Positions 9,287-26,920 of a DNA stretch of 58,667 nucleotides are shown here, in pieces. How positions within the stretch are numbered: position 1 is the stretch's first letter; each line of letters begins with the position of its first letter. The DNA is from Candidatus Desulfarcum epimagneticum (GTDB lineage Bacteria; Desulfobacterota; Desulfobacteria; Desulfobacterales; CR-1), in contig CAACVI010000009.1 in the NCBI GenBank assembly GCA_900659855.1, forward strand, positions 1 through 58,667. The letters are read 5' to 3'. Under the pieces are notes generated by a model that saw nothing but the letters and a program-made list of their open reading frames with translations, was not told where the DNA came from and did not search any database. The translations under genes were made by a program, and so were the position numbers.

Positions 9287-10429
9287 TTAAAATTTTTCTC
9301 TTTTAAGCCCGGGAGGGAACAGGGGAATCATGATATGGACCCGGGTCCCCTTTCCCGGGGCGGAGTCGACCCGCATATCTCCATGGTGTCTTTGAATCAC
9401 ATCATGGGCGATGAAAAGCCCCAGCCCGGTTCCTTTGTGGCCCTTGGTGGAGAAAAACAGGTTGAACATTTTTTTTTGGGTTTCGGCGTCCATGCCCACG
9501 CCGTTGTCCTGGATGTCAAAGCGTATGTGACGGGGGGTTTTTTTGACGGAAAAGACAATTTTGGGCTTTTTTTGACCGGGAGCGGCTTCGCAGGCGTCCG
9601 CCGCGTTTTCCAGCACATTCAAAAGAGCCGATCTGAGCGGGCTGATATCGATTCGAAACGTTCCCAAAGACGGCCCGATTTTTTTTTCAAACTCAATATG
9701 GCCCTCCCTGGCCTTTGTCTCCATGAATTCAACCATTTCACACAGAAAATCAGACACATGGATTTCGGTGGTTGAGAAATCCCTCTTTTTTGAGTAATAC
9801 AGCACATTGGAAATGAGGCGGCTGATCTGAGCGGACATCCGGGAGGCGATGTCGGCCCCTTCCCTCACCCGGTCCGGGTCATCTCGCCTGATTCCGCTGT
9901 TTAAGATGTGCAGCCCCCCATCCAGGCCGGTGAGCAGTCCCTTCAGATTATGGGATATGGAGCTGATCATCAGCCCCAGGGAGGAAAGACGGTCCTGGAG
10001 AGCGGATTTTTCCCGGATGCTTTCCTCCAGGTTTTCGGTGTAGGCCCGAAGCATCTGGCGCGAGACGATTTTGTTTCGCGCGTTTTTCAACGCCAGGCGG
10101 ATATTTTCGATATTCACGGGCTTGGCGATAAAATCAAACGCGTTATGGCGCAAACACCGGACGGCCAGATCCATATCCCCGTGGGCGGTGAGCACAATCA
10201 CTTCAATTTCGGGGTTTTTCCGTTTGATTGTTTTTAAAAGCTCCACCCCGCTCATGCCCGGCATTTTGATGCCCGTCATCACGATGGACGGCCGGATTCG
10301 ATCCAGCGCCGCAACGGCGTCCGCTCCGTTTTTCGCCTGGTGAACCGCGTGTCCGTCTTCAGTCAGGGCGGTCGCGATCACATTGCGAACCTCTTGATCA
10401 TCATCCACCAGGAGTATCGCGTTTTTCAT
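9287..10429 (-). CDS. Receiver-histidine kinase with degenerate receiver
   Basis: A 380-residue soluble protein: receiver (1-120), coiled linker, His-phosphotransfer helix with SSISHNLKGLL, and a HATPase domain with N-box, DNGVGMD and GTGLGLF motifs. It is a sister of the downstream kinase without the PAS modules. The receiver has the acidic DDD cluster and K103-type lysine, but the residue aligned with D53 of the sister is glycine (MTGIKMPG, codon GGC at 10273-10271). Phosphorylation of this receiver is therefore unlikely and it may work as a constitutive or protein-interaction module. It starts 39 bases after the universal stress protein stop. Confidence 0.85.
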   Translation of the reverse strand: MKNAILLVDDDQEVRNVIATALTEDGHAVHQAKNGADAVAALDRIRPSIVMTGIKMPGMSGVELLKTIKRKNPEIEVIVLTAHGDMDLAVRCLRHNAFDFIAKPVNIENIRLALKNARNKIVSRQMLRAYTENLEESIREKSALQDRLSSLGLMISSISHNLKGLLTGLDGGLHILNSGIRRDDPDRVREGADIASRMSAQISRLISNVLYYSKKRDFSTTEIHVSDFLCEMVEFMETKAREGHIEFEKKIGPSLGTFRIDISPLRSALLNVLENAADACEAAPGQKKPKIVFSVKKTPRHIRFDIQDNGVGMDAETQKKMFNLFFSTKGHKGTGLGLFIAHDVIQRHHGDMRVDSAPGKGTRVHIMIPLFPPGLKREKF

Positions 10430-10468: not shown

Positions 10469-11407
10469 CTAAAGGCTCTGGTCCAGCGCCTTGTCGGGGT
10501 GGTTGACGCTGGCCACCGGACACGCGGAGCGAAGCGCCACCTGCTCGGTCACGCTTCCAAGGGTCGGGTCTTCAAAACCGGCTCCCGGCTCCTTCGTGTG
10601 GTGGGCCATGACAATGAGATCGGCCTGTTTGACCCGGGCGAATTTCAGGATTTCCACATAAGGAACGCCCTCCCACACCTCGAAATCCATCTTCACGGAG
10701 TCGTCCGGCCGGGCCGCGCGGTCCGTCTCCATGCGCCGCTTCGCCTGTTTCACACGCTTTTCCGTCTCAACCTGGCTGTGGGTCCCGCTCATAATCTCGG
10801 CGGATATGTCCAGGGCGTGGAAAACATGCAGTCGGGCGCCTGACTTCACAGCCAGTTTTCGCGCCCACTGGAGGGCGAAATTCGCCGATTTTGAAAAGTC
10901 GGTTCCCACCACGACGCGGGAAAAAAAATCCTGGCCCTCGGGAACCGGTCGGTTGACCACCATCACCGGGCATCTGGCGGCCTTTGCCACCCGGCGCATG
11001 GCGCTTCCCGCGGACCCCGGGCGGGCCGAATCCCCGGGGTCGGGATCATCGGAATGGGCCCCCATGATGACCATGTCCACGTCCTTTTCCCGGGCGATTC
11101 TTAAAATTTCCCGGTAGGGCTGCCCCACGGCGGTTTTGATCGCCGCGTCCACGTCTTTTTCCAAAAGGGACTCATAGGCGCTTCTGATCTCCTCCTCCAC
11201 CCATTGGCCGTAGTCCTCGTCCATGTGGTAATCCTCGCCGGTCCGGCTGTCCGTGATAAACGGGCTGAATCCCCGGGTGGGAACGCCGATGACATGGAAA
11301 ATGATCAGTTTGGAGCCCCAGCGGGCCGCGAAGTCAAAGGCGGCCCGGGCCGCGTTGTCGCACGCCCGTGAGGCGTTGGTGGCGAACAGAACTTTTTTGA
11401 ACATCAT
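10469..11407 (-). CDS. Tandem universal stress protein
   Basis: A 312-residue cytoplasmic protein of two UspA domains (about 1-155 and 160-305). The first starts KKVLFATNAS and ends with a VMVVNRP strand; the second starts SRVVVGTDFSKSAN and ends with GSVTEQVALRSACPVASV. The second domain has the fuller ATP-binding-type glycine motif region. Such proteins bind adenine nucleotides or mediate stress responses. Two adjacent ATG codons compete: GGGAG is 3 bases from the first (11407) and 6 bases from the second (11404), which is the better spaced. The gene sits 34 bases after hmcF and looks like part of the same transcript. Confidence 0.85.
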   Translation of the reverse strand: MMFKKVLFATNASRACDNAARAAFDFAARWGSKLIIFHVIGVPTRGFSPFITDSRTGEDYHMDEDYGQWVEEEIRSAYESLLEKDVDAAIKTAVGQPYREILRIAREKDVDMVIMGAHSDDPDPGDSARPGSAGSAMRRVAKAARCPVMVVNRPVPEGQDFFSRVVVGTDFSKSANFALQWARKLAVKSGARLHVFHALDISAEIMSGTHSQVETEKRVKQAKRRMETDRAARPDDSVKMDFEVWEGVPYVEILKFARVKQADLIVMAHHTKEPGAGFEDPTLGSVTEQVALRSACPVASVNHPDKALDQSL

Positions 11408-11427: not shown

Positions 11428-11443
11428 TTTTTGAGCGAACCCT
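11428..11443. repeat. Solo terminus of the 1-164 element
   Basis: The 16 bases TTTTTGAGCGAACCCT match the termini of the palindromic element at 1-164. The copy lies between hmcF and the stress protein gene and overlaps the first base pairs of the hmcF stop codon region. It may be a recombination or excision footprint. Confidence 0.5.
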
Positions 11444-12839
11444 ATGTGGAAGCCTTCAGAGAGCCGGCGCAGGCGTCCACATCCAGCATGCTGATCAGAA
11501 GGGGCTTTAAAAACGACCACCGGATGCCCGTTTTGTAAATTTCCTCCATGTCCCGGATGGCGTCCCAGCAGTTGTGGCACGGCGCGATTACCAGATCGGC
11601 CCCGGTGGCTGTGATCTGGTTGCGTTTCACCTTGAGCCCCCGGTTTCTCTGCTCCCGGTAACGGCCGATTCCGTTCAGTCCGCCCCCGCCGCCGCAGCAG
11701 AAATTATGCTCCTTGGAGGGTCTCATTTCCCGGAAATCCTCGGCGATATAGCTCAAAATCTCCCGCCCGCATTCGGCCAGGCCCGCGTTCCGGACATAAT
11801 TGCAGGAGTCCTGGTAGGTCACGGGGGTCTTGATTTTTTTGGAAGGGTCGATTTTCAGTTTTCCCGTTCTCAGCGCCTCGGCCGCCCATTCCACATAATG
11901 AAAACTTTCAATGGGCGTTTTCCCGGTGCTGATCCCGGCCCAGTAGGGGCCTTCGATGACCGTGGCCCGGTAGGCGTGTCCGCACTCGGTCACCACCATC
12001 CGTTTGGCGTTTAAGCGGTCCATGGCCGAATAGACCGAGCGAACCTGTTTTTTGCATCCCTCCCAGTCCCCGGCGAACATGGCCAGGCTGGTCTCCTCCC
12101 ATCCCACGCTGGGGACGGTCCAGTTTTCGCCGGCCATATGAAACAAAATCGCCGCCTCTCCCAGGTCCTCGGGATAGATTTTGGGCTCCCGGGCGTTGAC
12201 GGTGTACAGAATATCCGCGTTTTCCTTGTCGATGGGGATTTTAAGACCCGGCCATTCCTCCCCGTACTCCTCCTCCATCCATTCGCAGGTGTCCACCCAG
12301 TCCTCGGTGGTCACATCCATCTGGGCCTGGTAAATCCGGTGCATTCCGGAGCCGATTTTCATCTCCCACGGGATAAACCCCTGGGAGAACAAAAGCCCCC
12401 GGACATACCCGAACATGACCCCCACGTCGATTCCAAAGGGGCAGTACAGGCCGCACCGGTTGCAGCAGGTGCATTTGGAGTAGGCCGTGTCCATCATCCG
12501 CATCATAAAGGAGGTGGAGACCCTGCCCCGTTTCTTGATCAGTTTGCCCAAAGTGGATTGAATCTTATAGGACGGGACCTGTTTGGGGTCCTTGTCGTTG
12601 GCCAGGTAAAAAAAGCAGCTGTCGGCGCACATGCCGCAGTGGGCGCATATCTCCAGCCATGTCCGGATCCTGGATTTGCATGTTTTTTGAATCGTGTTCC
12701 AAAGGGCCCGGGTGTCCACTTCCATTCGGGCCATTTCCTCGTAATATTGTTTTCCGCTTTTATCCGCCAGAAGCGCGTGGAGCTGTTCCTTGGTGTCCAC
12801 AGGCTTTCTGTTGCACAGTATTCCCTCAGACATTTTCAC
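11442..12839 (-). CDS. hmcF: Hmc complex iron-sulfur subunit (HdrD-like)
   Basis: A 465-residue cytoplasmic Fe-S protein expected to exchange electrons between the membrane quinone/heme part of the Hmc complex and cytoplasmic redox partners. Two [4Fe-4S] ferredoxin motifs are visible at about residues 67-77 ([11 protein letters not shown]) and 128-138 ([12 protein letters not shown]). Two CCG domains follow, with [18 protein letters not shown] and APCHNCWD motifs as in HdrD. Length matches HmcF of Desulfovibrio (about 460). It is the last gene of the hmc operon and a paralogue of tmcB at 18581. No membrane helices are seen. Confidence 0.9.
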
Positions 12840-12894
12840 GTCTCCCTGTTGTTTTATTTTTGAGCGCGGAACGGTGTGGCGCCGAAGCCCGGCG

Positions 12895-13578
12895 TTACCA
12901 GGCCATTCCCTTGCTTTTTTTCATGCCTCCCCGCTTGATTCCGAAATCCATCCCGATCTGGGCCCTTGAGAAAAAGAACAGAATAAAATGGGACAGCTTG
13001 GTGAACGGAATGGAAATGAGCATGATCTCCCCGGACAGAATATGGGCCGCCAGCCAGAAATCATAATTTCCCAGCTGTTTGTGGGCGATAAAGCCGGTGA
13101 CAAACGGCGCGGCGGCGATGATCAGAAGCACAATGTTGCGCGGGGTGGTGATGATCCTCACCTCCGGGAAGCTGAGTCTCCTTAAAAGAATAATAAGGGC
13201 CGCCACAATGGCCGCCAGTGTGAGAAAATCCGCCATGAAATCCGGCATGCTCCAGAAGCTGAATCCCCACCTCTCCATGAGCAGGTAGTTGTGGCCTTTG
13301 ATGAAAAGAGGGGTGGTCAAAATCGAGATGTGGAACACAAAAGCCACAAACATAAAGCCGAATTTGTTCCGCCATCCCCGGGTCCCTAAGGGCAAAAGCC
13401 AGTATAAAATGGATTTCGCGGCGCCTTTCATGCCGTGATAGCGGTTGACCGAATACGTCACCCGGTCCAGCTGCCAGTCCAGCCCCCTCAAATAAAGGAT
13501 TCCCCGGGCCAGAATTCCCACAAAAAATATCAGAAACGAGCCCAGGGCGAAGGGGCCCGACAAAATTTCATAAATCAT
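12895..13578 (-). CDS. hmcE: Hmc complex cytochrome b-like membrane subunit
   Basis: A 227-residue membrane protein with five or six helices, related to the NarI/DsrM-type gamma subunit that carries b-type hemes and contacts quinones. His residues suited to heme ligation sit in the helices ([27 protein letters not shown]). The start at 13578 is MIYEILSG and overlaps the hmcD stop as TAATG, implying translational coupling; a longer in-frame extension would cover hmcD and is rejected. The C-terminal segment [14 protein letters not shown] is shared in form with TmcC (RAHTGSEFGMVRKA), supporting common ancestry. Confidence 0.88.
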
Positions 13579-13721
13579 TAATCGTCTCCTTCCTCCCGGG
13601 GGTCTCTTCCGGTCAGAAAAAACCAGAATCCCCCGACGCCGGCCAGTATCAGCGCCATCAGGGCGTATATGGAGGCCTTGGTGGCCACCATGAAGTCGTG
13701 AAGTGTGTAAAAAACGTCCAT
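13578..13721 (-). CDS. hmcD: Hmc complex small membrane subunit
   Basis: This short gene encodes 47 residues, starting MDVFYTLHDFMVATKAS and continuing with one hydrophobic helix (about 18-36) and an acidic tail ending PREEGDD. Length and position between hmcC and hmcE match HmcD of Desulfovibrio, a single-helix subunit of unknown role. The ATG is preceded by an AAGGA-type site (AAATCAAAGG) and the stop overlaps the start of hmcE. Without the operon context it would be overlooked. Confidence 0.82.
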   Translation of the reverse strand: MDVFYTLHDFMVATKASIYALMALILAGVGGFWFFLTGRDPREEGDD

Positions 13722-13738
13722 CCTTTGATTTCCTTCTT

Positions 13739-14926
13739 TTATTTGGATGTGTGCGTGTGAATATAATCGGGATGCTCATACAAAACCGGCATCCGGGTCA
13801 CAATAAACCGGTAGGCCAGAACCCCGAGGGTCACGATAAAAACCGAAACGCCGATTTCCATCCAGTGGGGCGCGTATTTCTCGTCCGGGGGCAGGCTCCA
13901 GTTAAAGGCGATGACCGATACGTTGAGCCGGTTGAGCACAATGCCCAGAACGCTCCAGACCGAGGCGATTTTGATGATCCCGACGTTTCTCTCCCGGGTC
14001 CCCACAGCGTAAACAAAACAGGGCGCGGCCACAAAACCGAGCAACTCCAGCAGGAACCAGCCGCCGTAGGGGGTGAAAAGGTAATGCCAGTTGTGGTCGG
14101 CGGCGATTCCCACGATTTTGATGGCCAGGTAGCCCGCCATGACAAAGGCGGCGGCCTTTCCGAATCCCAGGACCACGCCGTCGGCCTCTTTGTGGTGGAC
14201 GTCGTCCATTTTATGGCTGAAAAATCGATGGGCCAGGGAGCTTTCCAGTATCACCATGGAAAGGCCCGCGATAATGCTTGAGACAAAGAAGAAAATGGGC
14301 AGATAGGAGGAATGCCACAGCGGGTGGAGCTTGGACGGGGCGATGAGAAAAAGCGCGCCCAGGGACGACTGGTGCAGCGTGGACAGAACCACCCCGAAGA
14401 TGGTCAGCGCGATGGTGAGCCGGGCCGCGATGTTCCTGAGCCTTTTAAGCCCGAGCCATTCCAGAGCCGCCGGGGAAAATTCGATAAAAAGGACCGTCAG
14501 ATACAGCGCCACGCAAAGGCCCACCTCAAAGAGCAGGGAAGAAGTTCCCTGGCTCACCACAAAGGGGTACCCCAAAGCCAGGCGAACGGGTCTTCCCACA
14601 TCGTAAAGCAGGGCCAGCAGCACCAGGGAGTAGCCCAGAAAACCCGTGAGAATGGCGGGCCTGACGGCGGAATGGTATTTTTTCATCCCGAAAATATAAA
14701 CCGCGGCGGAGGTCACATAGCCTCCGGCGGCCAGGGCCACGCCGCATAAAAGATCAAACCCGATCCATATTCCCCAGGGATAGTCATTGGAAAGATTCGT
14801 CACGGCGCCGAGACCCTTTGAGAAACGCAGAAAGGTGATTCCCAGCCCCGCGATCACAATCAAACCGGCGATGATATGAAACGCCGAGAGATTTTTCTTT
14901 TCTTTTAAGACGCCTTTTTCGGACAT
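13739..14926 (-). CDS. hmcC: Hmc complex NrfD-like membrane subunit
   Basis: A 395-residue integral membrane protein of the NrfD/PsrC family with about ten helices. It is expected to bind menaquinone and anchor the ferredoxin-like HmcB. Features include the N-terminal YPWGIWIGFDLLCGVALAAG segment typical of NrfD proteins and a WHSSYLPIFFFVSSIIAGLSM helix region. The start at 14926 (MSEKGVLKEKK) has AGGAGG eight bases upstream; an in-frame Lys-rich extension further up overlaps the end of hmcB and lacks a site. It lies 34 bases after hmcB and 17 bases before hmcD. Confidence 0.9.
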   Translation of the reverse strand: MSEKGVLKEKKNLSAFHIIAGLIVIAGLGITFLRFSKGLGAVTNLSNDYPWGIWIGFDLLCGVALAAGGYVTSAAVYIFGMKKYHSAVRPAILTGFLGYSLVLLALLYDVGRPVRLALGYPFVVSQGTSSLLFEVGLCVALYLTVLFIEFSPAALEWLGLKRLRNIAARLTIALTIFGVVLSTLHQSSLGALFLIAPSKLHPLWHSSYLPIFFFVSSIIAGLSMVILESSLAHRFFSHKMDDVHHKEADGVVLGFGKAAAFVMAGYLAIKIVGIAADHNWHYLFTPYGGWFLLELLGFVAAPCFVYAVGTRERNVGIIKIASVWSVLGIVLNRLNVSVIAFNWSLPPDEKYAPHWMEIGVSVFIVTLGVLAYRFIVTRMPVLYEHPDYIHTHTSK

Positions 14927-14960
14927 CCTTCGCGCCTCCTTTATTGTTTTTTTAAACTTT

Positions 14961-16043
14961 TTATGATGCTTCTTCTTTTGTCTCAGGCGCCTCATCCTCT
15001 TTAGAGGCTTCTTCCAGCGCCTTTTTCACTTCCCTTTCAATGGCGGCCTTTTTGTCCTTCTCGGCCTTTTTAATGGCCGCCGAAAGCTTTTGGGACGCCT
15101 CTTCGCCGGCTTCGGCCAGGGCCGTTTGAACCGCCTCCCGTTTTTCCTTTTGGGCGATTTTTTCTTTTCGTTTGTTCATGGCGTACACGCCGGTCAAAAG
15201 AACCGGCCACAAAGACACCACCATGGGCACGGCGCCCAGCGCCCCGGATGTGAACTTGGGGGCCGGGACCACGCCCAGATCCTCCCTCATGCCCATCTCG
15301 GAAAAGGGAACCCCGGACAGATACAGCCAGGATGTCCCGCCCATCTCATGCTCCCCGTAGATATGATCCACATAGCGTTCGGGCTTTTTCATGATCCTTT
15401 GCCGGGCGGTCTCCAGAAGCAGGCGGCGTTTGCCGAATGTCAGCGCCTGGGCCGGGCATTTTTCCACGCAGCCGGGGAGCAGTCCTTTTTCAACCCGGTC
15501 ATGGCACATGTGACATTTCTTGATTTCCGGGGAAAAGGCGTCGTCGTATTCGTAAGCCGGGATCCCGAAGGGACACGCGATCATGCAGTACCGGCAGCCC
15601 ACGCACACGGACGGGTCATAAGTGACGGCGCCGCTTTTGGTTTTTTTAAACGCCTTGACAAAACAGGCCGAGGCGCAGGCCGGCTCCAGGCAGTGGTTGC
15701 ACTGTATTTTGCGGTAAACGGTCCGGCCGCGCGGGGTCCCTTTCCCGGGACCGGCGTCATACCGGTTGACCACGGTGAAGGCGCCGGCGTCTGTGCGGCG
15801 TTTCTTTTCAAGGACCCCCAGGTCCGAAAAGGGACGCCGGGGCTCCGGAAGGCCGTTGACCTCTTGGCAGGCCTCCTCGCATTTTCGGCACCCGATGCAA
15901 AAGGCGCTGTCGTACAAAACGCCCAGACTGTCGGGGTGTCCGGAAAAATGGGTGTGGGGAGCGCCCCACGCGGACCTTCCCAGGGCGGATCCCGCCGCCG
16001 CGGCGCCCATCCAGCCCAGAAATTTTCTCCTCGAAACGGACAT
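14961..16043 (-). CDS. hmcB: Hmc complex periplasmic ferredoxin-like subunit
   Basis: A 360-residue Fe-S protein with a Tat signal ([15 protein letters not shown]) exporting it to the periplasmic face. Four Cys clusters of the four-[4Fe-4S] DmsB/HmcB type follow: [11 protein letters not shown] (about residue 50), [25 protein letters not shown] and [22 protein letters not shown] single membrane helix near residues 268-288 ([18 protein letters not shown]) is followed by a Lys/Glu/Ala-rich tail of about 65 residues predicted as coiled coil. It wires HmcA to HmcC. The ATG at 16043 has GGAG six bases away; an upstream TTG is less likely. Confidence 0.9.
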
Positions 16044-16125
16044 AAAATTCTCCAAAATAGCCGGTCAAACCGCAGAACGGGGTTTGACCGGCGTTTTATC
16101 AATCAGGTTTCTTTTAATACCATAA

Positions 16126-17730
16126 TCACTTTTTTGACTTTTTCTCGTCATGACATCCCAGGCAGTCGGTCGAGGCCGGTTTTTGAATATCCATGATCCG
16201 GTGACATTCCATGCACTGCATGTGATAAGCGGCCTTTAAGCCCGGTTTTGAGATGTCTTTTTCATCAAAGGGTTTGCCGTGGCACTCCGCGCAGCCCGGG
16301 GGTTTTTGCGAAGGCGGACTGTTGTGGTGGCAGCCCTGGCACAGGGTGGTTTTGTCCCGGTGAAAGTAAAGGGCCAGTTTGTTGTTTTTGATGTTTTCCG
16401 ACAGCTTCAAAATAATTTTGCCGTGGGGCATATCCACCGGCTCATACTCGTCGGACATGCTGTCGATTCGGACTTTTTCCGGGATCTCATCCTTTTTGAA
16501 TTCATGATGCCCTTCCCTTTTGACCTGGTCCAGGACCTTCCGGGCCGAGACGCCTTTCAGCTCCCCGGCCTTCCCGCCCGCCCCGGATTCGGCGACGGGC
16601 TCCATATGGCACGCCTTGCAGGAATCCGGATTTTCCTGGGGCGACGAGGGAATCTCCCAGTGACACCCCCCGCAGTCTTTCGTATGCTTGACGGCCTCAT
16701 GGCATCCCACGCAGCTTTGCGCGGCGCCGGTCCGGTGCATGGCCTGCTCCAGGCGCACGCCCCTGCCCTTTTCAGACCCCTTCAGGGAATGGCATTCGAC
16801 GCACGAATCCAGGGAGGCGTGATGGCAGACCCGGCATGTGTCGTTGTACGCCTCGTGGTTTTCATGATCAAAGGGGACCCGGCCCATCCTGGGGGTTTTG
16901 GCGAGTTTTTGGCCCTCGGCGGTCTTTTTAATGAAAACGGCGTCGGGCTGTTTCATCTTCATCCGGGTCACAAGGGACGGACGGGACACCTGTTCGGCCC
17001 ATTCGGCGCTGTGACACTGGCCGCACAGAACCGGGCCGGTTTTTTTCTTTTGGGAAAGCGTCTGAGCGTGGCATCCCACACATGAGACATGGGCGGCCTC
17101 CCGCATGGAGGAGCGGTTGTCTTCCCTCTTCTCTTTGTGGCAGTAGCGGCACGAGCCCTCTTTTCCCCTGGCGTAAAAAAGCGCTTTTTTCTTTTCGTCG
17201 TATTCGTGGTGGCAGCGCCCGCATGTGGGGTCCGAGTCTTTCTCAAGGGAGGACGTGTGCCGGAAATGGATGCGTTTGTCGAATTCAACCGGGTTTTCAA
17301 AGGACGGCGCCGTTTTTTTGGCGTCATGGCATCCGCCGCATGTGGTGGGCCCGGTTTTTTCCCTGGTCACGGCGGTCTGCCTGTGACACAGGGCGCATTC
17401 CCGGTGGTAGATTTCCACCAGGGCCTTTTTGTCCAGGTCCGCCGTTCGTTTAAAATGGATGGAGAACTTTCCACCCTCGGACATGTGGCAGGCCGAGCAG
17501 TCGCCTCCTTTTTTTTCAAGGGCCCGGACATGGGCGTCGTGGGGAAACATCACCCGGGGGCGCTCCGGGGGACCGAAAACGTCCATGGAGTCCATGGTCA
17601 TGTTTCCGGACCGGGGGGCCGAAGAGACCGGGGCCTTTTCGGCGCCGCCAATGGCCGGGGGGAAAATCATCACAATCCCCGCCAGGAAAAGAATGGCGGC
17701 CCTGGCAAAAAAATATTTTTTCTTTGTCAT
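16126..17730 (-). CDS. hmcA: High-molecular-weight cytochrome c, 16 hemes
   Basis: A 534-residue periplasmic multiheme cytochrome with a signal peptide (residues 1 to about 30). I count 16 CxxCH motifs, from CSACH near residue 78 to CLGCH near 527, exactly the number known for HmcA. The spacing shows repeated tetraheme cytochrome c3-like units. It receives electrons from periplasmic hydrogenases or other c3 cytochromes and passes them to HmcB and the membrane subunits. It is the first gene of hmcABCDEF, 31 bases after a receiver-protein gene. Many Lys residues are consistent with c3-type docking. The ribosome-binding site is weak. Confidence 0.95.
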   Translation of the reverse strand: MTKKKYFFARAAILFLAGIVMIFPPAIGGAEKAPVSSAPRSGNMTMDSMDVFGPPERPRVMFPHDAHVRALEKKGGDCSACHMSEGGKFSIHFKRTADLDKKALVEIYHRECALCHRQTAVTREKTGPTTCGGCHDAKKTAPSFENPVEFDKRIHFRHTSSLEKDSDPTCGRCHHEYDEKKKALFYARGKEGSCRYCHKEKREDNRSSMREAAHVSCVGCHAQTLSQKKKTGPVLCGQCHSAEWAEQVSRPSLVTRMKMKQPDAVFIKKTAEGQKLAKTPRMGRVPFDHENHEAYNDTCRVCHHASLDSCVECHSLKGSEKGRGVRLEQAMHRTGAAQSCVGCHEAVKHTKDCGGCHWEIPSSPQENPDSCKACHMEPVAESGAGGKAGELKGVSARKVLDQVKREGHHEFKKDEIPEKVRIDSMSDEYEPVDMPHGKIILKLSENIKNNKLALYFHRDKTTLCQGCHHNSPPSQKPPGCAECHGKPFDEKDISKPGLKAAYHMQCMECHRIMDIQKPASTDCLGCHDEKKSKK

Positions 17731-17761
17731 CTGTTAGGTTTCCGTTATGTTCGTTTAATCA

Positions 17762-18124
17762 TTATTCGGCGGCGGGGCCGATGGCCTCTGTCACCACCCG
17801 GATCAAATCTTTGGGATCAAATGGTTTTCGGATCACGGCCCGGGCGTTTTTCACGGCGTGCCGGCCGTCCAGCCCGGTGATCACAATGATGGGAATGTTT
17901 TTAAGTTTTGGGTCTTTCCGAATTTTTCGATAAAATCGCGACCCCCATTCATCGGGCATCTGAAGATCCAGGGTGATCAAATGGGGGGTTTCCTTTTTTA
18001 AAATCTCCATGCCCTCCAGTCCGGTTCCGGCCGAGCGGGTCTCATAGCCATTGTCCTCAAAAAGGGTCAACAGATATTTGACTATGATGGGGTCATCGTC
18101 GATGACGAGTATTTTTCTGGCCAT
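17762..18124 (-). CDS. Single-domain response regulator
   Basis: A 120-residue stand-alone CheY-like receiver with the acidic DDD at 9-11, phosphoacceptor D53 in TLDLQMP, T/S in VITG and K in RKPFD. It has no DNA-binding output domain, so it works by protein interaction or phosphotransfer. The gene is exactly between tmcA and hmcA. Desulfovibrio hmc loci also carry response-regulator genes (rrf1), so a link to control of these complexes is reasonable but unproven. The start has GGGAGG seven bases upstream. Confidence 0.88.
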   Translation of the reverse strand: MARKILVIDDDPIIVKYLLTLFEDNGYETRSAGTGLEGMEILKKETPHLITLDLQMPDEWGSRFYRKIRKDPKLKNIPIIVITGLDGRHAVKNARAVIRKPFDPKDLIRVVTEAIGPAAE

Positions 18125-18143
18125 TTCAAACCTCCCTCATGTC

Positions 18144-18545
18144 TTAGCGCCGGGATTGAACGGGGCGTTTAATGTGGCACTCCCCGCACATAACCGGGCC
18201 TTTTTTCATTTTCCTGTGGCATCCCCGGCAGTTCAAATGATAGGCCTTTCGAAGGGCCGGGGCGTTTCCCGAGGATTTTAAATCGTGACACTCGGCGCAT
18301 CTTTGATCCTCGGAGGACTCGTCCTCCATCTTGACCCCATCCCGGTAAACGTGGTGACACCGGCCGCATTCCTCAATTCCGGCGGCTTCGTTATGGGCGT
18401 CGTGAGGAAAGGCCGCCGGGGGACGCGAGGGTTTTTCAAAGACGCTGTTGTCTATATGGGTCATGTCTTCCTGGGCATGCGCGAAAAAAAACGAAAAAAG
18501 GATTCCGGCCGCCAAAAATAATATTAACCAAGCGTTTTTTTTCAT
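18144..18545 (-). CDS. tmcA: Tmc complex tetraheme cytochrome c3
   Basis: A 133-residue periplasmic cytochrome: signal peptide MKKNAWLILFLAAGILF, then four CxxCH sites (CGRCH, CAECH, CRGCH, CGECH) with upstream His ligands (FPHDAHN, AYHLNC). This is the type II cytochrome c3 of the Tmc complex, which takes electrons from type I c3 and hydrogenase. The start at 18545 is set by AAGGAG five bases upstream; a longer in-frame version lacks one. It lies 35 bases downstream of tmcB, so tmcA is last in a tmcD-C-B-A order. Confidence 0.88.
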   Translation of the reverse strand: MKKNAWLILFLAAGILFSFFFAHAQEDMTHIDNSVFEKPSRPPAAFPHDAHNEAAGIEECGRCHHVYRDGVKMEDESSEDQRCAECHDLKSSGNAPALRKAYHLNCRGCHRKMKKGPVMCGECHIKRPVQSRR

Positions 18546-18580
18546 CCTGTCTCCTTTTGGGGAAATGCCGCCCAAAAAAA

Positions 18581-19933
18581 TCAAAGGGCCTGATCCGGCC
18601 CCGGGACCGGTTTTTCCATGGTCTCGTATATGATGTCGCTGATGAATTTGACCTCCATGCCCACATCATAATGAGAGTTGATGTCTTCCAGGCCGCTGTG
18701 ACAGTTGTGGCAGGGGGCGATGAGAATAGAGGCCCCCTTTTTGCCGGCTTCTTTGAGCTGGTCGGCCTTGACCCGGTTGCCTTTGACCCGGGACTTTTTA
18801 AAGGGAGGGCCGCAGTTGATCACGCCCCCGCCGGCGGCGCAGCAGTAGTTGTGCTCCCGGTTGGGGGTCATCTCCACAAAATTTTCACACAACTCTCTCA
18901 CCACGAACCGGGCCTTTTCATGAAGCCCTCTTCCCCTTGAAACGTTGCACGGATCATGAAGGGTCACGGTTTCTTTTAATTTTTCCTTAATGACGATCCG
19001 GCCCTCCTTAAGCAGGTCGTAATAAAATTCGATGGCGTGGAGGGTCGGGATGGGGGGCATTTTCCATCCCAGCCAGCGGTTGCCCATGTCGTAAACCGAC
19101 CGGAAGGCGTGGCCGCATTCGCCCATGACGATTTTCTTCACCCGGAGGCGGATCGCCGTCTCGAAATGCTCCCGTTTGACCCGGCCCATGATTTCATTGT
19201 CCCCGGTGTACATGGCCATGTCGCTGTTGTCCCATCCCGGCGTGGCGGGCATGGTCCAGTCCGCGCCGGCCGCGTTCATGATCACGGCGGCCTGGTACAG
19301 CAGCTGGGCCTGGAATTTGGGCTCGGGTCCGATGACGGAGTACATGATGTCCGCGCCCTCTTTTTCAATGGGGATTCGCAGGCCGGGCATTTCGGCCCGG
19401 GCCTCCTCCTCCTGCCACTGGAGGGTGTCGGGCCACTCATCGTCTTTCACCCACATCTGGTTCATGGTGGCCGAGTGACTGTGGGCCGTGTCCTGGATAT
19501 ACAGGGGCGTCATTCCCAGGCGGTGGCAGATTCGCCGGACCACCAGAATCATGTAGGCGATGTCGATGCCGAAGGGACAGTACATGGAGCATCGCTTGCA
19601 TATGTTGCACTGGGTCGAGGCGATGACCGCGGCCTGTTTCATGAACTCCGGGCTCACCCTCCCCTTTTTTTTGATCATTTCCCAAAGGGTCTGTTTGACT
19701 TTGCCCGCCGGGGAAAAGGCCGGGTCTTTGTCATTGGAAAGATAAAAATGGCAGGCGTCCGAGCAAAGCCCGCAGTGAACGCAGGTTTTGAGATAATGGG
19801 ACAGCCGGGCGCCTGTCTCTTTGTCGATGACATGTTCGATTTCGGCGGCTATTTTTTCTTCGGTCAATTTTGAGGCGGCGGTTTCCAGCCCCTCGTCCAT
19901 GACGGTTTCATTTTTGATTTCAGCCTTGGGCAT
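18581..19933 (-). CDS. tmcB: Tmc complex iron-sulfur subunit (HdrD-like)
   Basis: A 450-residue cytoplasmic protein with two [4Fe-4S] motifs (CVHCGLCSDAC near residue 51; CNICKRCSMYCP near 109) and two CCG domains (HDPCNVSRG, NYCCAAGGG, APCHNCHSG), the HdrD-type catalytic arrangement. It is a paralogue of hmcF with the same motif order. It probably passes electrons between the Tmc membrane cytochrome and a cytoplasmic acceptor in the sulfate reduction pathway; the acceptor is not established by the sequence. It follows tmcC by 76 bases. Confidence 0.88.
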   Translation of the reverse strand: MPKAEIKNETVMDEGLETAASKLTEEKIAAEIEHVIDKETGARLSHYLKTCVHCGLCSDACHFYLSNDKDPAFSPAGKVKQTLWEMIKKKGRVSPEFMKQAAVIASTQCNICKRCSMYCPFGIDIAYMILVVRRICHRLGMTPLYIQDTAHSHSATMNQMWVKDDEWPDTLQWQEEEARAEMPGLRIPIEKEGADIMYSVIGPEPKFQAQLLYQAAVIMNAAGADWTMPATPGWDNSDMAMYTGDNEIMGRVKREHFETAIRLRVKKIVMGECGHAFRSVYDMGNRWLGWKMPPIPTLHAIEFYYDLLKEGRIVIKEKLKETVTLHDPCNVSRGRGLHEKARFVVRELCENFVEMTPNREHNYCCAAGGGVINCGPPFKKSRVKGNRVKADQLKEAGKKGASILIAPCHNCHSGLEDINSHYDVGMEVKFISDIIYETMEKPVPGPDQAL

Positions 19934-20009
19934 ATTGATTAAACGTCTCCCGGGTTGTGTGTCGCGTCCAACGACGGAAGCGCCGCCGAAGGCGTTTTTT
20001 TAACAAAAA

Positions 20010-20672
20010 TCACCAGTCCCTCGCTTTTCTCACCATTCCGAATTCCGACCCGGTGTGGGCCCGGACAAAGGGGCCGGAGATCATGTGGGACAGTCGGGTG
20101 AAGGGAATGGCCATGAGAAGAATTTCGCCGGACAAAACATGGGCGATCATGAAAAGGCGATAGGGGCCAAGCTGGTGAAAGGCGAAAAAACCGGTGACAA
20201 ATGGGGCGGCCACCATGGCCAGGATGAAAAAATCCGAAGGGGAGGTCAGGAATTTGACTTCCGGCAGAAACAGCCGTCTGCCCAGAAAAAAGAGGCAGGA
20301 GGCGATGACGATGAGCGTCATCACATCCCCCGCGCCTTCGGTTATCACGGCGGTCCATGTCAGATTCCAGCTTTCTTCCCAAAGGGCCCCGTGGGAAATG
20401 ATAAGAGCCGGGGCCGCCATCAGGCAGATGTGAAAGGCGAAGGCGACGACGGTCATGACGGGCCGAAGACGCATATTGGTCGTGGCGAATGGAACGCTCC
20501 ACATGAAAATGGAGCGCAGACTGTATTTGAGACTCATATACGAATAGATGTGTCTCTCTTTTTTATGGATCGAAACAAACATGCCGACCAGATTGAACAG
20601 CAGACCCCCGATCAAAATGATGAATGAGATCCACAGCATGGGGCCGGTCAGAAAATCATAAAGACTCAGCAT
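20010..20672 (-). CDS. tmcC: Tmc complex cytochrome b subunit
   Basis: A 220-residue membrane protein with five or six helices, related to NarI/DsrM and to HmcE. Candidate heme-ligating His residues are in FAFHICLMAAPALIISHG and in IAHVLSGEI/RLSHMI near the C terminus. It should carry b-type heme and link periplasmic TmcA to cytoplasmic TmcB. It lies 22 bases after tmcD. No ferredoxin-like or NrfD-like partner is present, as expected for Tmc rather than Hmc. Confidence 0.88.
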   Translation of the reverse strand: MLSLYDFLTGPMLWISFIILIGGLLFNLVGMFVSIHKKERHIYSYMSLKYSLRSIFMWSVPFATTNMRLRPVMTVVAFAFHICLMAAPALIISHGALWEESWNLTWTAVITEGAGDVMTLIVIASCLFFLGRRLFLPEVKFLTSPSDFFILAMVAAPFVTGFFAFHQLGPYRLFMIAHVLSGEILLMAIPFTRLSHMISGPFVRAHTGSEFGMVRKARDW

Positions 20673-20694
20673 CGCGCGCTCCGATTGATGTGTT

Positions 20695-21966
20695 TTATTT
20701 CAAAACCCGGGCCATCCCGTCCAGGCCCAGAACCGTTCTTTTGTAAATTCCGTCTTCAACGCGCCTCAAAAGGATTTTTTTCCCGTCCGGGGAAAAAACC
20801 GGGTCCCAGGCCGCGTCGCACCGCCTTTCCCACAGCGCGCCATTGATCGCAAACGCCCATTTCCCGTTTATCTCCGCTTTTGCGGCCACATGTTGTCCAT
20901 CCGGGGAAAAAACCGGGTCCCAGATCATGTCAAAGGCGTTTTTCCACAAAACCCCGTCTTTGATGATGGTCCATTTCCCCTTGTGTTTTCCGCGCGCCGC
21001 GATATGACGGCCGTCCGGGCTGAAAACCGGCGCGTCCACATATTCGTCCACGAGACATTTCCATGGCGCGTCATCCACCGCGATGGTCCATTTTCCGAAT
21101 TTGGGGCAAACCGCGGCCGCCACTTTTTCCCCGTTCGGGCAGGCGGACTGGGACCAGAGCTGAATGTAGCGGTTTTTCCATATCATCTCATCGTCCGCGG
21201 CCAGCCCCCATTTGCCTTCCGATTTCACCGGCGCCAGCACCGAGCCGTTCCCGGTGTGGAAAACCGGCCGCCACACGCAGTCGTATCTTTTTTTCCAGGG
21301 CGCCCCGTCCACCACGATGGTGTAGTCATACAAAGTCAAACGGGCCTCGGCCGCCAGGCTCTTTCCGTCCGGGCTGAAGCTTAAGTCCCAGATATTGAGG
21401 AAGCGGCTGTCCCATGCCTTCCCGTTGACGGCGGCGGTGAAGGTTCCCTCCTGGAATTTGAATATCTCCCCTTCCCCCGGGCTTTCAACCTGAACCGACG
21501 CCGCGGTTTTCCCGCCGTCCGGGCTGACGGTCATCCGGGTCATGTAGGGAAAGACGGTCTCCCACAAAACGCCGTCCACCGCCATGCCGTATTTCATCTC
21601 GTCCTGGGCCGCGACGGCGATCTTCGACCCGTCCCGGCTGAACAGGGGGCTCCACACATAGCCGAAGGCCCGGTCCCAGGCCGCGCCGTCCACCGCCATG
21701 GTCCATTCCCCCATGTCCGCCGCCAGGCAGGTCAGACGTCCGTCCGGGGAAAAACGGGGGAGCCATATTTTTTCAAATTCCGACTCCCATCGCCTTCCGT
21801 TGACGGCCATGGTGAACGCCTCTTCGCCGACTTTGACCACAGCGGCGATTTTTTCTCCGTCCGGGCTGACGCAGGGCTCCTCCACCCATTCAAAATCGTC
21901 TTTCCAGTCTTCAAACGGAATCTGTTTCTCGCCTGTTTCCCAGTCCCACAGGGAAAAATCGGGCAT
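20695..21966 (-). CDS. tmcD: Tmc complex tryptophan-rich repeat subunit
   Basis: A 423-residue protein made of about nine tandem units of 42-50 residues. Each has the pattern FSPDGK..AA, a GKWT-like strand and VDGxxWxxxFDxxWxPVF, giving a beta-propeller-like layout rich in Trp. No signal peptide or membrane helix is visible, so it is probably cytoplasmic. TmcD of Desulfovibrio is a Trp-rich protein of the same complex with unknown role; position next to tmcC supports the name. The start at 21966 (MPDFSLWDWETGEKQ) has AGGAGG five bases upstream. It is the first gene of the whole tmc-hmc run. Confidence 0.78.
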   Translation of the reverse strand: MPDFSLWDWETGEKQIPFEDWKDDFEWVEEPCVSPDGEKIAAVVKVGEEAFTMAVNGRRWESEFEKIWLPRFSPDGRLTCLAADMGEWTMAVDGAAWDRAFGYVWSPLFSRDGSKIAVAAQDEMKYGMAVDGVLWETVFPYMTRMTVSPDGGKTAASVQVESPGEGEIFKFQEGTFTAAVNGKAWDSRFLNIWDLSFSPDGKSLAAEARLTLYDYTIVVDGAPWKKRYDCVWRPVFHTGNGSVLAPVKSEGKWGLAADDEMIWKNRYIQLWSQSACPNGEKVAAAVCPKFGKWTIAVDDAPWKCLVDEYVDAPVFSPDGRHIAARGKHKGKWTIIKDGVLWKNAFDMIWDPVFSPDGQHVAAKAEINGKWAFAINGALWERRCDAAWDPVFSPDGKKILLRRVEDGIYKRTVLGLDGMARVLK

Positions 21967-22076: not shown

Positions 22077-22103
22077 GTTATACAATTTTACTTTTTAAGT
22101 CAA
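22077..22103 (-). promoter_or_regulatory. Candidate promoter of the tmc-hmc block
   Basis: On the minus strand TTGACT (22103-22098) and TATAAC (22082-22077) are separated by 15 bases, shorter than ideal, within a very AT-rich stretch about 110 bases upstream of tmcD. It is the best sigma70-like candidate in the gap. Confidence 0.35.
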
Positions 22104-22202: not shown

Positions 22203-22250
22203 AAAAATAAAACAAGCGCATGGGGAGACAGGGCGTCCCCCATGCGCCTG
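22203..22250 (-). terminator. Terminator of the sulfur relay operon
   Basis: On the minus strand a 10-bp perfect stem (GCGCATGGGG / CCCCATGCGC; 22246-22237 with 22225-22216) is followed by TTGTTTTATTTTT. It begins about 35 bases after the stop of the DsrE-like gene and separates this operon from tmcD. Confidence 0.8.
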
Positions 22251-22282: not shown

Positions 22283-22585
22283 TTAAAAGACGACGTACTT
22301 CTCGCACTCCTCAATCATCTCGGCGTTTTTGGCCTGTGTGACAAATTCTTTAAAACCCACGCCGGGCACATCGCCGGACATCCCCCAGCTTCTGAAGCTC
22401 ACATCGCACACAAACAGCTTGGCTTTGCCCACCAGCTCTTCAAATTCGGGTTCCTGGGTGCATAAAACGCCCTGGCCCGTAAAAAAAATTCTCATGTCTT
22501 TGCCTTTGGCGGCGGCCGCTTTGGCAAGATTGACGACATGGCCCAAATTTTTATTGGAATTTACAAGTATGCCCAGATCAGCCAT
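22283..22585 (-). CDS. DsrE-family sulfur relay protein
   Basis: A 100-residue cytoplasmic protein with the DsrE/DrsE-like Rossmann-type fold: a beta strand LGILVNSN, an Ala-rich helix, then IFFTGQGVLC and KLFVCDVSFRSWG. Cysteines at about positions 42, 60 and 94 are candidates for persulfide transfer. It is last in an operon with tusA and a YedE-type transporter, so it probably receives or hands over sulfane sulfur. It cannot be assigned to a named Dsr/Tus subunit from sequence alone. Confidence 0.75.
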   Translation of the reverse strand: MADLGILVNSNKNLGHVVNLAKAAAAKGKDMRIFFTGQGVLCTQEPEFEELVGKAKLFVCDVSFRSWGMSGDVPGVGFKEFVTQAKNAEMIEECEKYVVF

Positions 22586-22618
22586 AATATCATTCCTTAT
22601 CGTTGTAGGTTATGGGGT

Positions 22619-22792
22619 TTACCACCAGCAGATGACCCGGTCAAACGCGAAAATATCGTCCACCACACCGGCCCAGTCCGTGTCATCGGAAAGCAGAACG
22701 GTTTTGGCGCCGCTTGAGTCCGGCGTGACGATATTGATGAGCTGACTGGTCATTTCATCGGGGTCGCTTTTGCAGATATACAGTGTTTTCAT
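22619..22792 (-). CDS. Small TusB/DsrH-like protein
   Basis: This small gene encodes 57 residues, starting MKTLYICKSDPDEMTSQ and ending FDRVICWW. AGGAGG is well placed before the ATG and both neighbours lie within 33 bases, so expression is likely. The beta-strand start, a cysteine at residue 7 and a CW motif near the C terminus are reminiscent of short DsrH/TusB-like sulfur carriers, but this is tentative. It would complete a DsrE-, DsrH- and TusA-like set. Confidence 0.6.
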   Translation of the reverse strand: MKTLYICKSDPDEMTSQLINIVTPDSSGAKTVLLSDDTDWAGVVDDIFAFDRVICWW

Positions 22793-22807
22793 GTTTGCCC
22801 GCCTCCT

Positions 22808-23095
22808 TTAAAAGGGAATGACGACATCGGCTTCTTTCACAAAAGCGCCGATGTCCTCAACGCCGACTTTTTTAAAATCGTATTTTTCAACATTGGCGGC
22901 ATTGTTTGAAAAACGCTCGCCCTCCATTTCATCTATGAACTCCATATTGTCCGAGTACGCTTCGTTCATATCGGCGATTTCATGATCCAAAACCACCATC
23001 TTTACCTCCGCGTCCTCCAGAAGCGCTCCCAGACTGGTCCGCAATCCCTCGTACTGCTGACCGGGCTCTTTAATCAAAACCACGACTTTTTTCAT
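22808..23095 (-). CDS. DsrE/DsrF-like protein
   Basis: A 95-residue protein with an N-terminal strand KKVVVLIKEPG, a helix GLRTSLGALLE, a second strand VKMVVLDHEI and a C-terminal DVVIPF, the layout of DsrE-like small sulfur proteins. It has no cysteine at all, so it cannot carry a persulfide itself and may be a structural partner of the cysteine-bearing homologue at 22283. It lies between tusA and the 57-residue gene with short gaps. Confidence 0.6.
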   Translation of the reverse strand: MKKVVVLIKEPGQQYEGLRTSLGALLEDAEVKMVVLDHEIADMNEAYSDNMEFIDEMEGERFSNNAANVEKYDFKKVGVEDIGAFVKEADVVIPF

Positions 23096-23113
23096 TTCCC
23101 ACGCCCTCTTTTT

Positions 23114-23347
23114 TTATGCTTTTATCAGGTACTTGGTATAGCCCTCATCCATGTCCGCAAGGCTCAGGAACTCATGCTTCTTGTTGACGAAATCAGGAAT
23201 GTCCTTTTTGGACCCCTCGTCGGTTCCCCAAACCTCCAGAACTTCGCCGGCCTTCATTCCCTTAAGCTCTTTTTTTGTTTTCAAAAGGGGCATGGGGCAT
23301 GTGAGCCCTCTTAAATCCAAAACTTTATCCACCTTGACGTCAGACAT
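23114..23347 (-). CDS. tusA: TusA-family sulfurtransferase
   Basis: A 77-residue SirA/TusA protein. The motif DLRGLTCPMPLLKTKKEL contains the persulfide-forming Cys in the conserved CPxP context, and GEVLEVWGTDEGSKKDIP is the second beta-alpha unit. TusA proteins carry sulfane sulfur between enzymes in the cytoplasm. The ATG at 23347 follows AGGAGGAGATT; a longer start has no site. Its position after a YedE-like importer suggests it takes imported thiosulfate-type sulfur or feeds sulfur into the DsrE-like proteins. Confidence 0.9.
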   Translation of the reverse strand: MSDVKVDKVLDLRGLTCPMPLLKTKKELKGMKAGEVLEVWGTDEGSKKDIPDFVNKKHEFLSLADMDEGYTKYLIKA

Positions 23348-23392
23348 AATCTCCTCCTGTTTAAAAGTGATAAACACATAAAAAATGGATCA

Positions 23393-23510
23393 GACGGCAT
23401 CGTAAAAATTCGATATACAAGGCGTGGCGGTTATTTTTAATTGAGGCAATACATGTAGTATGCCTCGATTAAAAATAACCGCTGCGACGCATGTTTTTTA
23501 CGATGTCGTC
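23393..23510. repeat. 118-bp palindromic element
   Basis: The outer arms pair as GACGGCATCGTAAAAA with TTTTTTACGATGTCGTC, the inner arms as about 22 bases around GCGGTTATTTTTAATTGAG and its complement, with an 11-12-base tip. It spans the gap between the YedE-like gene and tusA and overlaps the YedE stop codon by two bases. A half copy lies at 56561-56588. It resembles a non-autonomous mobile element. Confidence 0.65.
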
Positions 23511-24699
23511 AAAAAATGACAAATTTTTCCGTTTCTTCATTCCAATTTGCCAGCAAAGCCCATCCTATGAAAAACAACGCGTATAACGGCAGGGTCACGT
23601 GCCAGGAAATGAGTTCGGGGATAAAAATATTGGGTCCGAAATATGAATAAATGTCCCATTTCATAAACAGGCTCCTGGATACCGCGTTGGCGATGGAAAA
23701 ACAGAACAGGCCCACGATGATCTTGGTGTTTCCCTCTCCCATGCGCCACAAAGCCGAGCTGGCGCAGCTTCCCAGGAGGATCATCCCGGTCCCGAAGAGG
23801 ATTCCCCCTCCGATGGTGCCCAGGCCCACGGGCTGATACACGCCCATGGTGTCCGGCTGCATGTAGGCCCATTTAATAACCGAGGACCCCAGCGCGTAAA
23901 TGGCCAGGCTCAAACACGCCGTTTTCACCATCTCGCCGTCGCCGGTCATCAGGGGGCATCTGAACACCCGCACAAAGCAGAATCTCGTCCGGTGCATCAC
24001 AATGCCGATGAGAAGCCCCAGGAGGAGCAGTCCCCCGATCTTGGCCTGGTCAAAATAAGAGTACACATAGATCACCCCGATCATGATGAAAAAAAGCGCG
24101 ATTCCCATTCCCGGGTGGACTTTTTTCCAGTCAAACCCCTCGGATTTTTCAGGCTGGGGACGCTGTTTCGGGGCCGGAAGCGATTCCACCTCCCACAGGA
24201 CCAGCTTCAGTCCGAAAAAAGCGCCGATCATGACGCCGATGATCATGGTGAACCCGCCCAGGGAAAGGACGCCGATTCCGGAGTAAAAGGCCCCGCCCAG
24301 GCAGCCGCCGGTCATGGACACGCCCACGCCCATAAGGGAGCCGCCGATGATGCCTTTTAAGTATTCCCGGCCCGAGGCGATCTGCCATTTAAACTGCCGG
24401 CTCAAAAGCGCGGAGACAATGGCCCCGAGAATGATCCCGCCGTTGGAGGCCGAAACCGGATGGAGCAGCGGCGACAGGTCCGGAACATCCTGCTTGATTT
24501 TCACCCCGTATCCGATCCATTCGATCCAGTTTCGGTAGCCGCCGGTGACTCCCCATGGAAAATTCCACAAAAAGATCATCAGAACCAGGATGGCCATGAA
24601 TATTCCGCCCAGCCAGAAGGGCCAGTTGTTTTCAAAGACATGGGAGTAGAGCCTTTTGATGTCTTCCTTCGCAAAACCTAAAAAACTTGTCTCTTCCAT
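23509..24699 (-). CDS. YeeE/YedE-family sulfur transporter
   Basis: A 396-residue integral membrane protein with about ten helices and two internal sulfur-transport repeats: GGSLMGVGVSMTGGCLGGAF (first half) and GGGILFGTGMILLGSCASSAL (second half), each with the small-residue plus Cys motif of thiosulfate-type importers. It probably moves a reduced sulfur species across the inner membrane and heads the operon with tusA and the DsrE-like genes. The start at 24699 (MEETSFLGFAKED) is preceded by AGGAG; an upstream extension is not supported. Confidence 0.82.
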   Translation of the reverse strand: MEETSFLGFAKEDIKRLYSHVFENNWPFWLGGIFMAILVLMIFLWNFPWGVTGGYRNWIEWIGYGVKIKQDVPDLSPLLHPVSASNGGIILGAIVSALLSRQFKWQIASGREYLKGIIGGSLMGVGVSMTGGCLGGAFYSGIGVLSLGGFTMIIGVMIGAFFGLKLVLWEVESLPAPKQRPQPEKSEGFDWKKVHPGMGIALFFIMIGVIYVYSYFDQAKIGGLLLLGLLIGIVMHRTRFCFVRVFRCPLMTGDGEMVKTACLSLAIYALGSSVIKWAYMQPDTMGVYQPVGLGTIGGGILFGTGMILLGSCASSALWRMGEGNTKIIVGLFCFSIANAVSRSLFMKWDIYSYFGPNIFIPELISWHVTLPLYALFFIGWALLANWNEETEKFVIF

Positions 24700-26857: not shown

Positions 26858-26920
26858 GAAATTTTTGATGGTTCAATTTCCATTTATTTTTAAATATTTC
26901 CGGAGACGGGTTTTTTAAAC

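Follow-up and report, generated by a model that had tools for sequence, protein, structure and literature searches.

Are the genes for the Tmc and Hmc electron-transfer complexes of Candidatus Desulfarcum epimagneticum transcribed together or as two neighbouring units? The question is raised by a locus in the window, by which we mean the whole 58,667-nucleotide (nt) stretch of DNA analysed here (assembly GCA_900659855.1, contig CAACVI010000009.1). An earlier note had placed tmcD-C-B-A and hmcA-B-C-D-E-F head to tail on this stretch, and had proposed that a single regulon covers both. We find one co-directional cluster encoding a complete, canonical Tmc and a complete, canonical Hmc together with their usual signalling genes, in which read-through from tmcD to the kinases is possible. 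We give this reading a probability of about 0.65.

The row contains 14 genes, all on the minus strand and head to tail, from 21966 down to 7309 (about 14.7 kb). In the direction of transcription these are tmcD-C-B-A, a lone receiver gene, hmcA-B-C-D-E-F, a stress protein gene and two receiver-kinase genes:

20695..21966, minus strand: tmcD (WD40-like subunit), 423 amino acids (aa); NF045725, 583 bits (cut-off 440); ATG at 21966
20010..20672, minus strand: tmcC (membrane anchor), 220 aa; NF045723, 289 bits (cut-off 240)
18581..19933, minus strand: tmcB (4Fe-4S / CCG protein), 450 aa; NF045724, 824 bits (cut-off 735)
18144..18545, minus strand: tmcA (acidic tetraheme cytochrome c3), 133 aa from ATG; NF045722, 159 bits (cut-off 114); 4 CXXCH motifs
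17762..18124, minus strand: stand-alone receiver of the DVU0259/DivK family, 120 aa; NF045717 (DVU0259_DivK), 164 bits (cut-off 160)
16126..17730, minus strand: hmcA (hexadecaheme cytochrome), 534 aa; NF045713, 577 bits (cut-off 400); 16 CXXCH motifs
14961..16043, minus strand: hmcB (4Fe-4S protein), 360 aa from ATG; NF045715, 518 bits (cut-off 420); twin-arginine-like start by eye
13739..14926, minus strand: hmcC (NrfD-type membrane protein), 395 aa from ATG; NF045714, 655 bits (cut-off 550); PF03916
13578..13721, minus strand: hmcD, small 47-aa open reading frame (ORF) between hmcC and hmcE; placed by position and size, not scanned against a family model
12895..13578, minus strand: hmcE (membrane anchor), 227 aa; NF045716, 322 bits (cut-off 275); match from residue 69 of a longer ORF
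11442..12833, minus strand: hmcF (4Fe-4S / CCG protein), 463 aa; NF045711, 893 bits (cut-off 750)
10469..11407, minus strand: tandem universal stress protein (Usp), 312 aa; PF00582 in two stretches
9287..10429, minus strand: N-terminal receiver and histidine kinase, 380 aa; PF00072, PF00512, PF02518
7309..9264, minus strand: N-terminal receiver, PAS domain and histidine-kinase ATPase domain, 651 aa; PF00072, PF13426, PF02518; last of the row

Nine of the ten Tmc and Hmc subunits scored above curated NCBIfam equivalog cut-offs, and the tenth, HmcD, was placed by position. All four Tmc subunits are present at this level, with four CXXCH motifs in TmcA, and the same holds for the 16-heme HmcA, HmcB, the NrfD-type HmcC, HmcE and HmcF. 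Chance does not explain a run of 14 adjacent genes in the same direction, ten of which have curated-family matches over cut-off. The gaps, in row order, are 22, 76, 35, 19, 31, 82, 34, 17, -1, 61, 34, 39 and 22 bp (maximum 82 bp), with gene starts picked by model match, ATG and a purine-rich stretch upstream; the true start of hmcE is internal to a longer ORF at 12895-13779. Matches, gene order and coordinates all agree with the arrangement described in the earlier note, including the single receiver gene between the complexes, the gaps of tens of bases, and the stress protein and two kinases after hmcF; the note did not name the strand. Two related complexes do not account for the genes. HmcA scored 187 bits against a nine-heme cytochrome cut-off of 640, and the Nhc-type complex is said to be without E and F subunits, unlike Hmc (PMC4215793; this and the other papers cited by PMC number are quoted from parts of their text, unless stated otherwise). 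For DsrMKJOP, the DsrK model gave 210 and 181 bits against a cut-off of 400, and DsrM gave 18 against 300.

We next looked at the junction between the two gene sets. The tmcA-hmcA junction measures 413 bp and consists of the receiver gene plus 19 and 31 bp of non-coding DNA. Neither the fold scan nor a reading of the junction found a terminator-like site across tmcA-receiver-hmcA. No sigma-70-like site was found on the minus strand at 18144-17730 by a scan whose overall yield was at chance level (11 matches versus 8.6 expected). The earlier note had held that separate strong promoters and terminators between tmcA and hmcA would speak against its proposal, and the sequence offers neither. The row has the sequence features of an operon, namely one strand, short gaps and no terminator-like site at the tmc-hmc junction. 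With so little non-coding DNA at the junction, and neither a terminator-like nor a sigma-70-like site found there, a single transcript spanning tmcD to hmcF is plausible.

We compared 161 tmcB loci: 80 named loci (the best 80 of 203 confirmed), 37 from the Desulfobacterales (one per family label, among the matches listed, starting at least 9 kb into the contig), three hand-picked because hmc was already known nearby (L160-L162), 40 of about 80 usable rows from the Desulfovibrionales, and the window. Some of these are one contig taken twice (L075/L130, L066/L153, L090/L129, L096/L157 and others). Among 132 distinct loci, window included, a receiver at least 45% identical to that of the window starts within 200 bp after tmcA in 66, and 70 have such a receiver no more than 600 bp from tmcA. 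Over the 160 bp that follow tmcA, a terminator-like site occurs in none of these 70 but in 25 of the 62 loci without such a nearby receiver. Considering that such a site is lacking in all 70 receiver loci, the DVU0259-type receiver appears to close the tmc unit; in the window, hmcA comes directly after it. We also asked whether a missing terminator past the receiver could argue for fusion of tmc and hmc, and dropped the argument: such a site occurs within 160 bp after the receiver in only eight of 66 loci (the shuffles for these sites keep base content only), so its absence from the window says little.

The edges of the row are marked by two candidate signals upstream of tmcD:

22213..22250, minus strand: strong terminator-like hairpin with a T-rich tail; fold of -29.1 kcal/mol, the lowest in the scan, then TTTTATTT
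22077..22103, minus strand: candidate promoter for the whole row, TTGACT, 15 nt, TATAAC; found by eye in an AT-rich stretch, and weak

The hairpin sits between DsrE/TusA/YeeE-type genes, which lie upstream, and tmcD. It was missed by a simpler consensus terminator scan, and the fold scan of the window was run without a shuffle control. We take it as the only likely terminator in the scan because it lies in non-coding DNA and is the strongest. The 15-nt spacer of the candidate promoter explains its absence from the list produced by a scan for 16-18 nt spacers. On the downstream side the row stops at 7309, and the next large minus-strand ORF, an AMP-binding enzyme, starts 443 bp on. An Rfam search of the window returned nothing at gathering score. 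The same-strand genes upstream of tmcD (22283-24801) encode a DsrE-like protein, a 95-aa ORF with no Pfam match, TusA and a YeeE-type protein, all but the 95-aa ORF being sulfur genes. Queries with these four were absent from the tmc locus layouts of relatives, at bit-score floors of 45/50 that may miss short proteins.

Several observations weigh against a single transcript. A terminator-like hairpin lies 46-105 bp past the tmcA stop in seven of nine relatives with the tmc-then-hmc order (L060, L075/L130, L103, L105, L082, L089, L171, L175 and L176), a non-random sample in that L103 and L105 were chosen since both genes had already been placed near each other. Only L060, L175 and the window are without the hairpin among the ten junctions. 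With L103 and L105 left out, it occurs in five of the eight tmc-then-hmc loci, window included, of the shuffle-controlled set of 132 distinct loci, in which dinucleotide-preserving shuffles of the 160 bp that follow tmcA gave a hairpin in 0-6% of tries, depending on the group. Within the row itself, the fold scan reported hairpins of about -24 to -10 kcal/mol inside genes, including -24.2 near 20290 (tmcC), -20.0 near 15202 (hmcB), -19.1 near 13622, -17.4 near 12394 and -13.5 near 18579 (the end of tmcB). Their presence within genes indicates that the scan has false positives or, less likely, that these are attenuators. The consensus scans gave counts near chance for terminators (33 versus 28.7 expected) as they did for promoters, and a sigma-54 consensus with up to two mismatches matched the window 17 times versus 26.6 expected, which is fewer than chance and no signal.

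A rival explanation is that there are two neighbouring units, tmcDCBA-receiver and hmcABCDEF-Usp-kinases, and that hmc has its own internal promoter in the tmcA/receiver region. The closeness of the two would then reflect inheritance or chance shuffling rather than a shared regulon. Besides the hairpins of the relatives, data from other species favour this explanation. In Desulfococcus multivorans, all 17 substrates yielded most subunits of the two Tmc complexes, with TmcA1 and TmcB2 undetected, while Hmc was detected on phenylacetate and phenylpyruvate only (PMC5109826), a separation that also tells against joint expression. Sixteen hmc loci without a tmc match in 18 kb (L107-L122) show hmc as a self-standing block, with Usp and a receiver after hmcF in ten. 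In D. hydrothermalis, RNA sequencing found hmcA-F, Usp and a CheY-like receiver responding together to pressure (PMC4162548); the term 'tmc' occurs nowhere in the text of that paper. The ten loci with Usp and a receiver after hmcF, and this joint response, count towards the preferred reading as well. In D. alaskensis G20 growing on hydrogen, tmc mutants were impaired (mean fitness -1.6), and hmc mutants were neutral in the pool (+0.1) and had a shorter lag when grown singly (PMC4215793). Against two units stands the junction of the window, with no terminator-like or sigma-70-like site. Since its non-coding DNA amounts to just 19 and 31 bp, the only room for an internal promoter would be within a coding gene. 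We consider two units unlikely in the window, while taking this explanation as the most serious of the rivals.

The single regulon proposed in the earlier note is thus partly supported. In its favour stands the plausible joint transcript, with no terminator or promoter found at the junction. Joint control is more doubtful: the arrangement is not unusual, and the D. multivorans proteins, the hairpins in seven of nine relatives and the hmc block of D. hydrothermalis leave the evidence from relatives mixed and partly against it.

On the preferred reading, transcription would begin in the AT-rich DNA ahead of tmcD, and RNA polymerase could continue over tmcD-C-B-A, the receiver, hmcA-F, Usp and both kinases, a distance of about 14.7 kb. 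By analogy with Desulfovibrio, Tmc would pass electrons from a periplasmic, hydrogenase-charged cytochrome c3 inward to sulfite reduction; reduction of Tmc by type I cytochrome c3 and hydrogenase, with electrons moving inward, was proposed in other species (PMC4215793). Hmc, with its NrfD subunit, would more likely move electrons outward and help an ion gradient. The earlier note had treated both complexes as routes from periplasm to cytoplasm, which conflicts with the opposite electron directions for Tmc and Hmc proposed from the D. alaskensis mutants; directions and partners are still incompletely understood (PMC4215793). A joined cluster would make both directions of membrane electron exchange available together, and the receiver, Usp and kinases may tune Tmc and Hmc. 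A single message for both would be workable if the cell balances the complexes afterwards or uses internal promoters, which could uncouple hmc from tmc.

How common is this neighbourhood? TmcB was found above cut-off in 218 of 389 Desulfobacterales genomes, and HmcF in 198. In the 161 loci, hmc follows tmc on the same strand in nine (window included), precedes it in 11, forms hybrid rows with it in four, lies on the other strand in seven and is absent from the flanks examined in 130, an upper bound since many flanks end at contig ends. The 93 loci with at least 9 kb on both sides comprised 74 without hmc, six with hmc before and five with hmc after tmc, two hybrids and six with hmc on the opposite strand. 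Same-strand hmc occurs in five of 37 loci of the one-per-family Desulfobacterales set (hybrid L157 included) and in three of 40 from the Desulfovibrionales. By distinct tmcB sequence, it occurs in 20 of 141: seven after, nine before, three hybrids and the window, with the hand-picked L160 and L161 among them. The synteny check suggested in the earlier note thus shows that the neighbourhood recurs, with both orders in the Desulfobacterales and tmc-then-hmc in the Desulfovibrionales. D-C-B-A was considered as an inverted gene order and rejected, being the usual order in nearly all laid-out loci with all four tmc genes (not counted); the exceptions are L197 and L199, with a TmcA match ahead of tmcD. 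Tandem duplicate tmcDCBA clusters were seen at L200:7200-15400 and L065:1-7300.

The neighbourhood could also be ancestral and lost many times, with the window as a keeper of the old order. The order shared by Desulfovibrionales-type genomes (L082, L089, L171, L175 and L176) and Desulfobacterales (L060, L075/L130, L103 and L105) agrees with this. Conversely, the orders vary among loci, with hmc before tmc, hmc after tmc, permuted hmc and converging arrangements. A FastTree tree of tmcB with 141 rows calls for 13 or more changes of the same-strand state, a count that may be inflated since loci whose flanks end early were scored 'no'; 100 label shuffles gave a mean of 18.9 (range 15-20). The tmcB rows nearest the window (L132, L041 and L099) have no hmc within the flanks covered, L041 being a 4.4-kb contig. 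Joining is clustered in lineages, yet appears from the tree to have happened or been lost many times. Repeated joining would fit these data better, if not decisively, than an ancestral order followed by losses, which we consider improbable.

Three relatives carry a row that mixes the two gene sets, HmcA-HmcB-HmcC-TmcD-TmcC-TmcB (L058:4014-11314, L096:3737-11293, which equals L157, and L097:3767-11320). A search that covered the subunits other than HmcD gave no TmcA, HmcE or HmcF match beside these rows. In L097 all six genes exceed their family cut-offs, as does TmcB of L096 and L058, and the TmcB sequences of the hybrid rows are mutual nearest rows in the tmcB tree. Two of the hybrid genomes (G539 and G540) have a second locus, receiver-HmcE-HmcF-Usp-receiver-TmcA-like (L209:7514-11967 and L210:8173-12564), whose TmcA-like gene is 31-32% identical to TmcA of the window and below the TmcA cut-off. 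The rows of these two genomes look reciprocally scrambled, and complete separate complexes are possible there. The third hybrid genome, G541, a draft whose completeness is not known, has no HmcF at cut-off and a full tmcDCBA elsewhere; a hybrid HmcABC-TmcBC(D) complex would be the straightforward reading of its genes. Hybrid rows are unmentioned in the parts consulted of the Tmc and Hmc literature found by subunit-name search, which is not proof of their absence from print. Judging from gene order, they suggest that Tmc and Hmc modules may be exchangeable. It is a more doubtful step to propose that Tmc and Hmc, made from one mRNA, might form an electron exchanger that works in both directions, has interchangeable parts and is governed by a single receiver-kinase system.

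The weakest alternative, that subunits were misassigned and the row holds two Hmc-like or two Tmc-like complexes, is refuted: TmcB/HmcF and TmcC/HmcE are homologous pairs that cross-match in the NCBIfam scan, but only own-family scores exceed cut-offs (TmcB 824 versus 367 bits to HmcF, HmcF 893 versus 375 to TmcB). Elsewhere in the host genome, a second TmcB/HmcF-like gene lies beside a TmcC-like gene (G000:C2:21251-22423; L206), 45% and 40% identical to HmcF and TmcC of the window, respectively. Queries from the window found no cytochrome match near this pair.

The host genome comprises 3.26 Mb in 52 contigs and encodes dsrA over cut-off and one NiFe hydrogenase, beside which lies an ORF that by eye resembles the matching small subunit, twin-arginine start included; these genes count in favour of the preferred reading. 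The hydrogenase large subunit gene, outside the window (G000:C23:143208-144689; L207), contains an in-frame TGA at 7284 of L207, in the N-terminal metal-binding motif (RSCGV-TGA-TYIHA), and its C-terminal DPCIACAVH retains the cysteines. A degenerate pattern for this TGA matched eight of 379 genomes of the order, and a reversed control pattern matched none. Six of the eight, host included, were read and all had equal flanking motifs and ending. To our knowledge, selenocysteine at this N-terminal position of a hydrogenase is unusual. The consulted part of a 2026 review lists only UxxC for such selenocysteine hydrogenase subunits.

Two repeats were seen by eye in the window upstream of the row. 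The minus-strand ORF at 25148-25837 holds two nearly identical copies of a peptide stretch, and the plus-strand ORFs that overlap it show the same kind of repetition, which suggests a repeated DNA element between genes at 25148-25980. At 26036-29821, two adjacent minus-strand ORFs end in a near-identical stretch, which we take to resemble sulfatase-modifying-factor proteins.

How does the window compare with known systems? Five Desulfovibrionales-type loci (L167, L170, L182, L187 and L193) have the layout tmcDCBA-Usp-receiver-receiver. The D. vulgaris tmc locus itself presumably has this layout as well. D. vulgaris Hildenborough has the four tmc subunits in common with the window, but its hmc lies elsewhere (DVU_0263-0266 for tmc and DVU_0531-0536 for hmc, distant locus tags; PMC10920352). 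The earlier statement that the two operons are separate in Desulfovibrio holds for this species, whereas the tmc-then-hmc order is also found in the Desulfovibrionales. The hmc locus of D. hydrothermalis is like that of the window in its six subunits, their order and the Usp that follows (PMC4162548). Unlike the Desulfovibrio hmc operon, the window has a DVU0259-type receiver ahead of hmcA. Five Desulfovibrionales-type loci with tmcDCBA-hmcABCEF-Usp-receiver-kinase (L082, L089, L171, L175 and L176) share the order of the complexes and the Usp after hmcF. Kinases lie past Usp in L082 and L089 and were left out of the layouts of the other three. In these five loci, the receiver is located past Usp and not between tmcA and hmcA, and the junctions of 288-458 bp carry a hairpin in four. 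The junction of L175 is shorter (288 bp) than that of the window, but non-coding.

Among the closest known systems is that of D. multivorans DSM 2059, reported in 2016, where hmc lies downstream of tmcA1 beside receivers, a universal stress protein and histidine kinases (PMC5109826). The neighbourhood is therefore already reported, and the window is a compact further example and mainly a confirmation. The D. multivorans protein data show that neighbouring genes need not be equally expressed (PMC5109826). In the wider comparison the tmc and hmc genes come together repeatedly and in changing order, which suggests that the two are functionally linked. A genome with both complexes in one possible transcript offers a natural way to ask whether their joint production is obligatory or can be uncoupled. 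The window is distinctive in its compactness. In the probable D. multivorans locus (L103/L104) the tmcA-hmcA spacer is 5678 bp, with a hairpin of -25.2 kcal/mol 85 bp after tmcA, whereas the window has 413 bp, mostly receiver gene, no hairpin, and the least non-coding DNA of the ten junctions compared.

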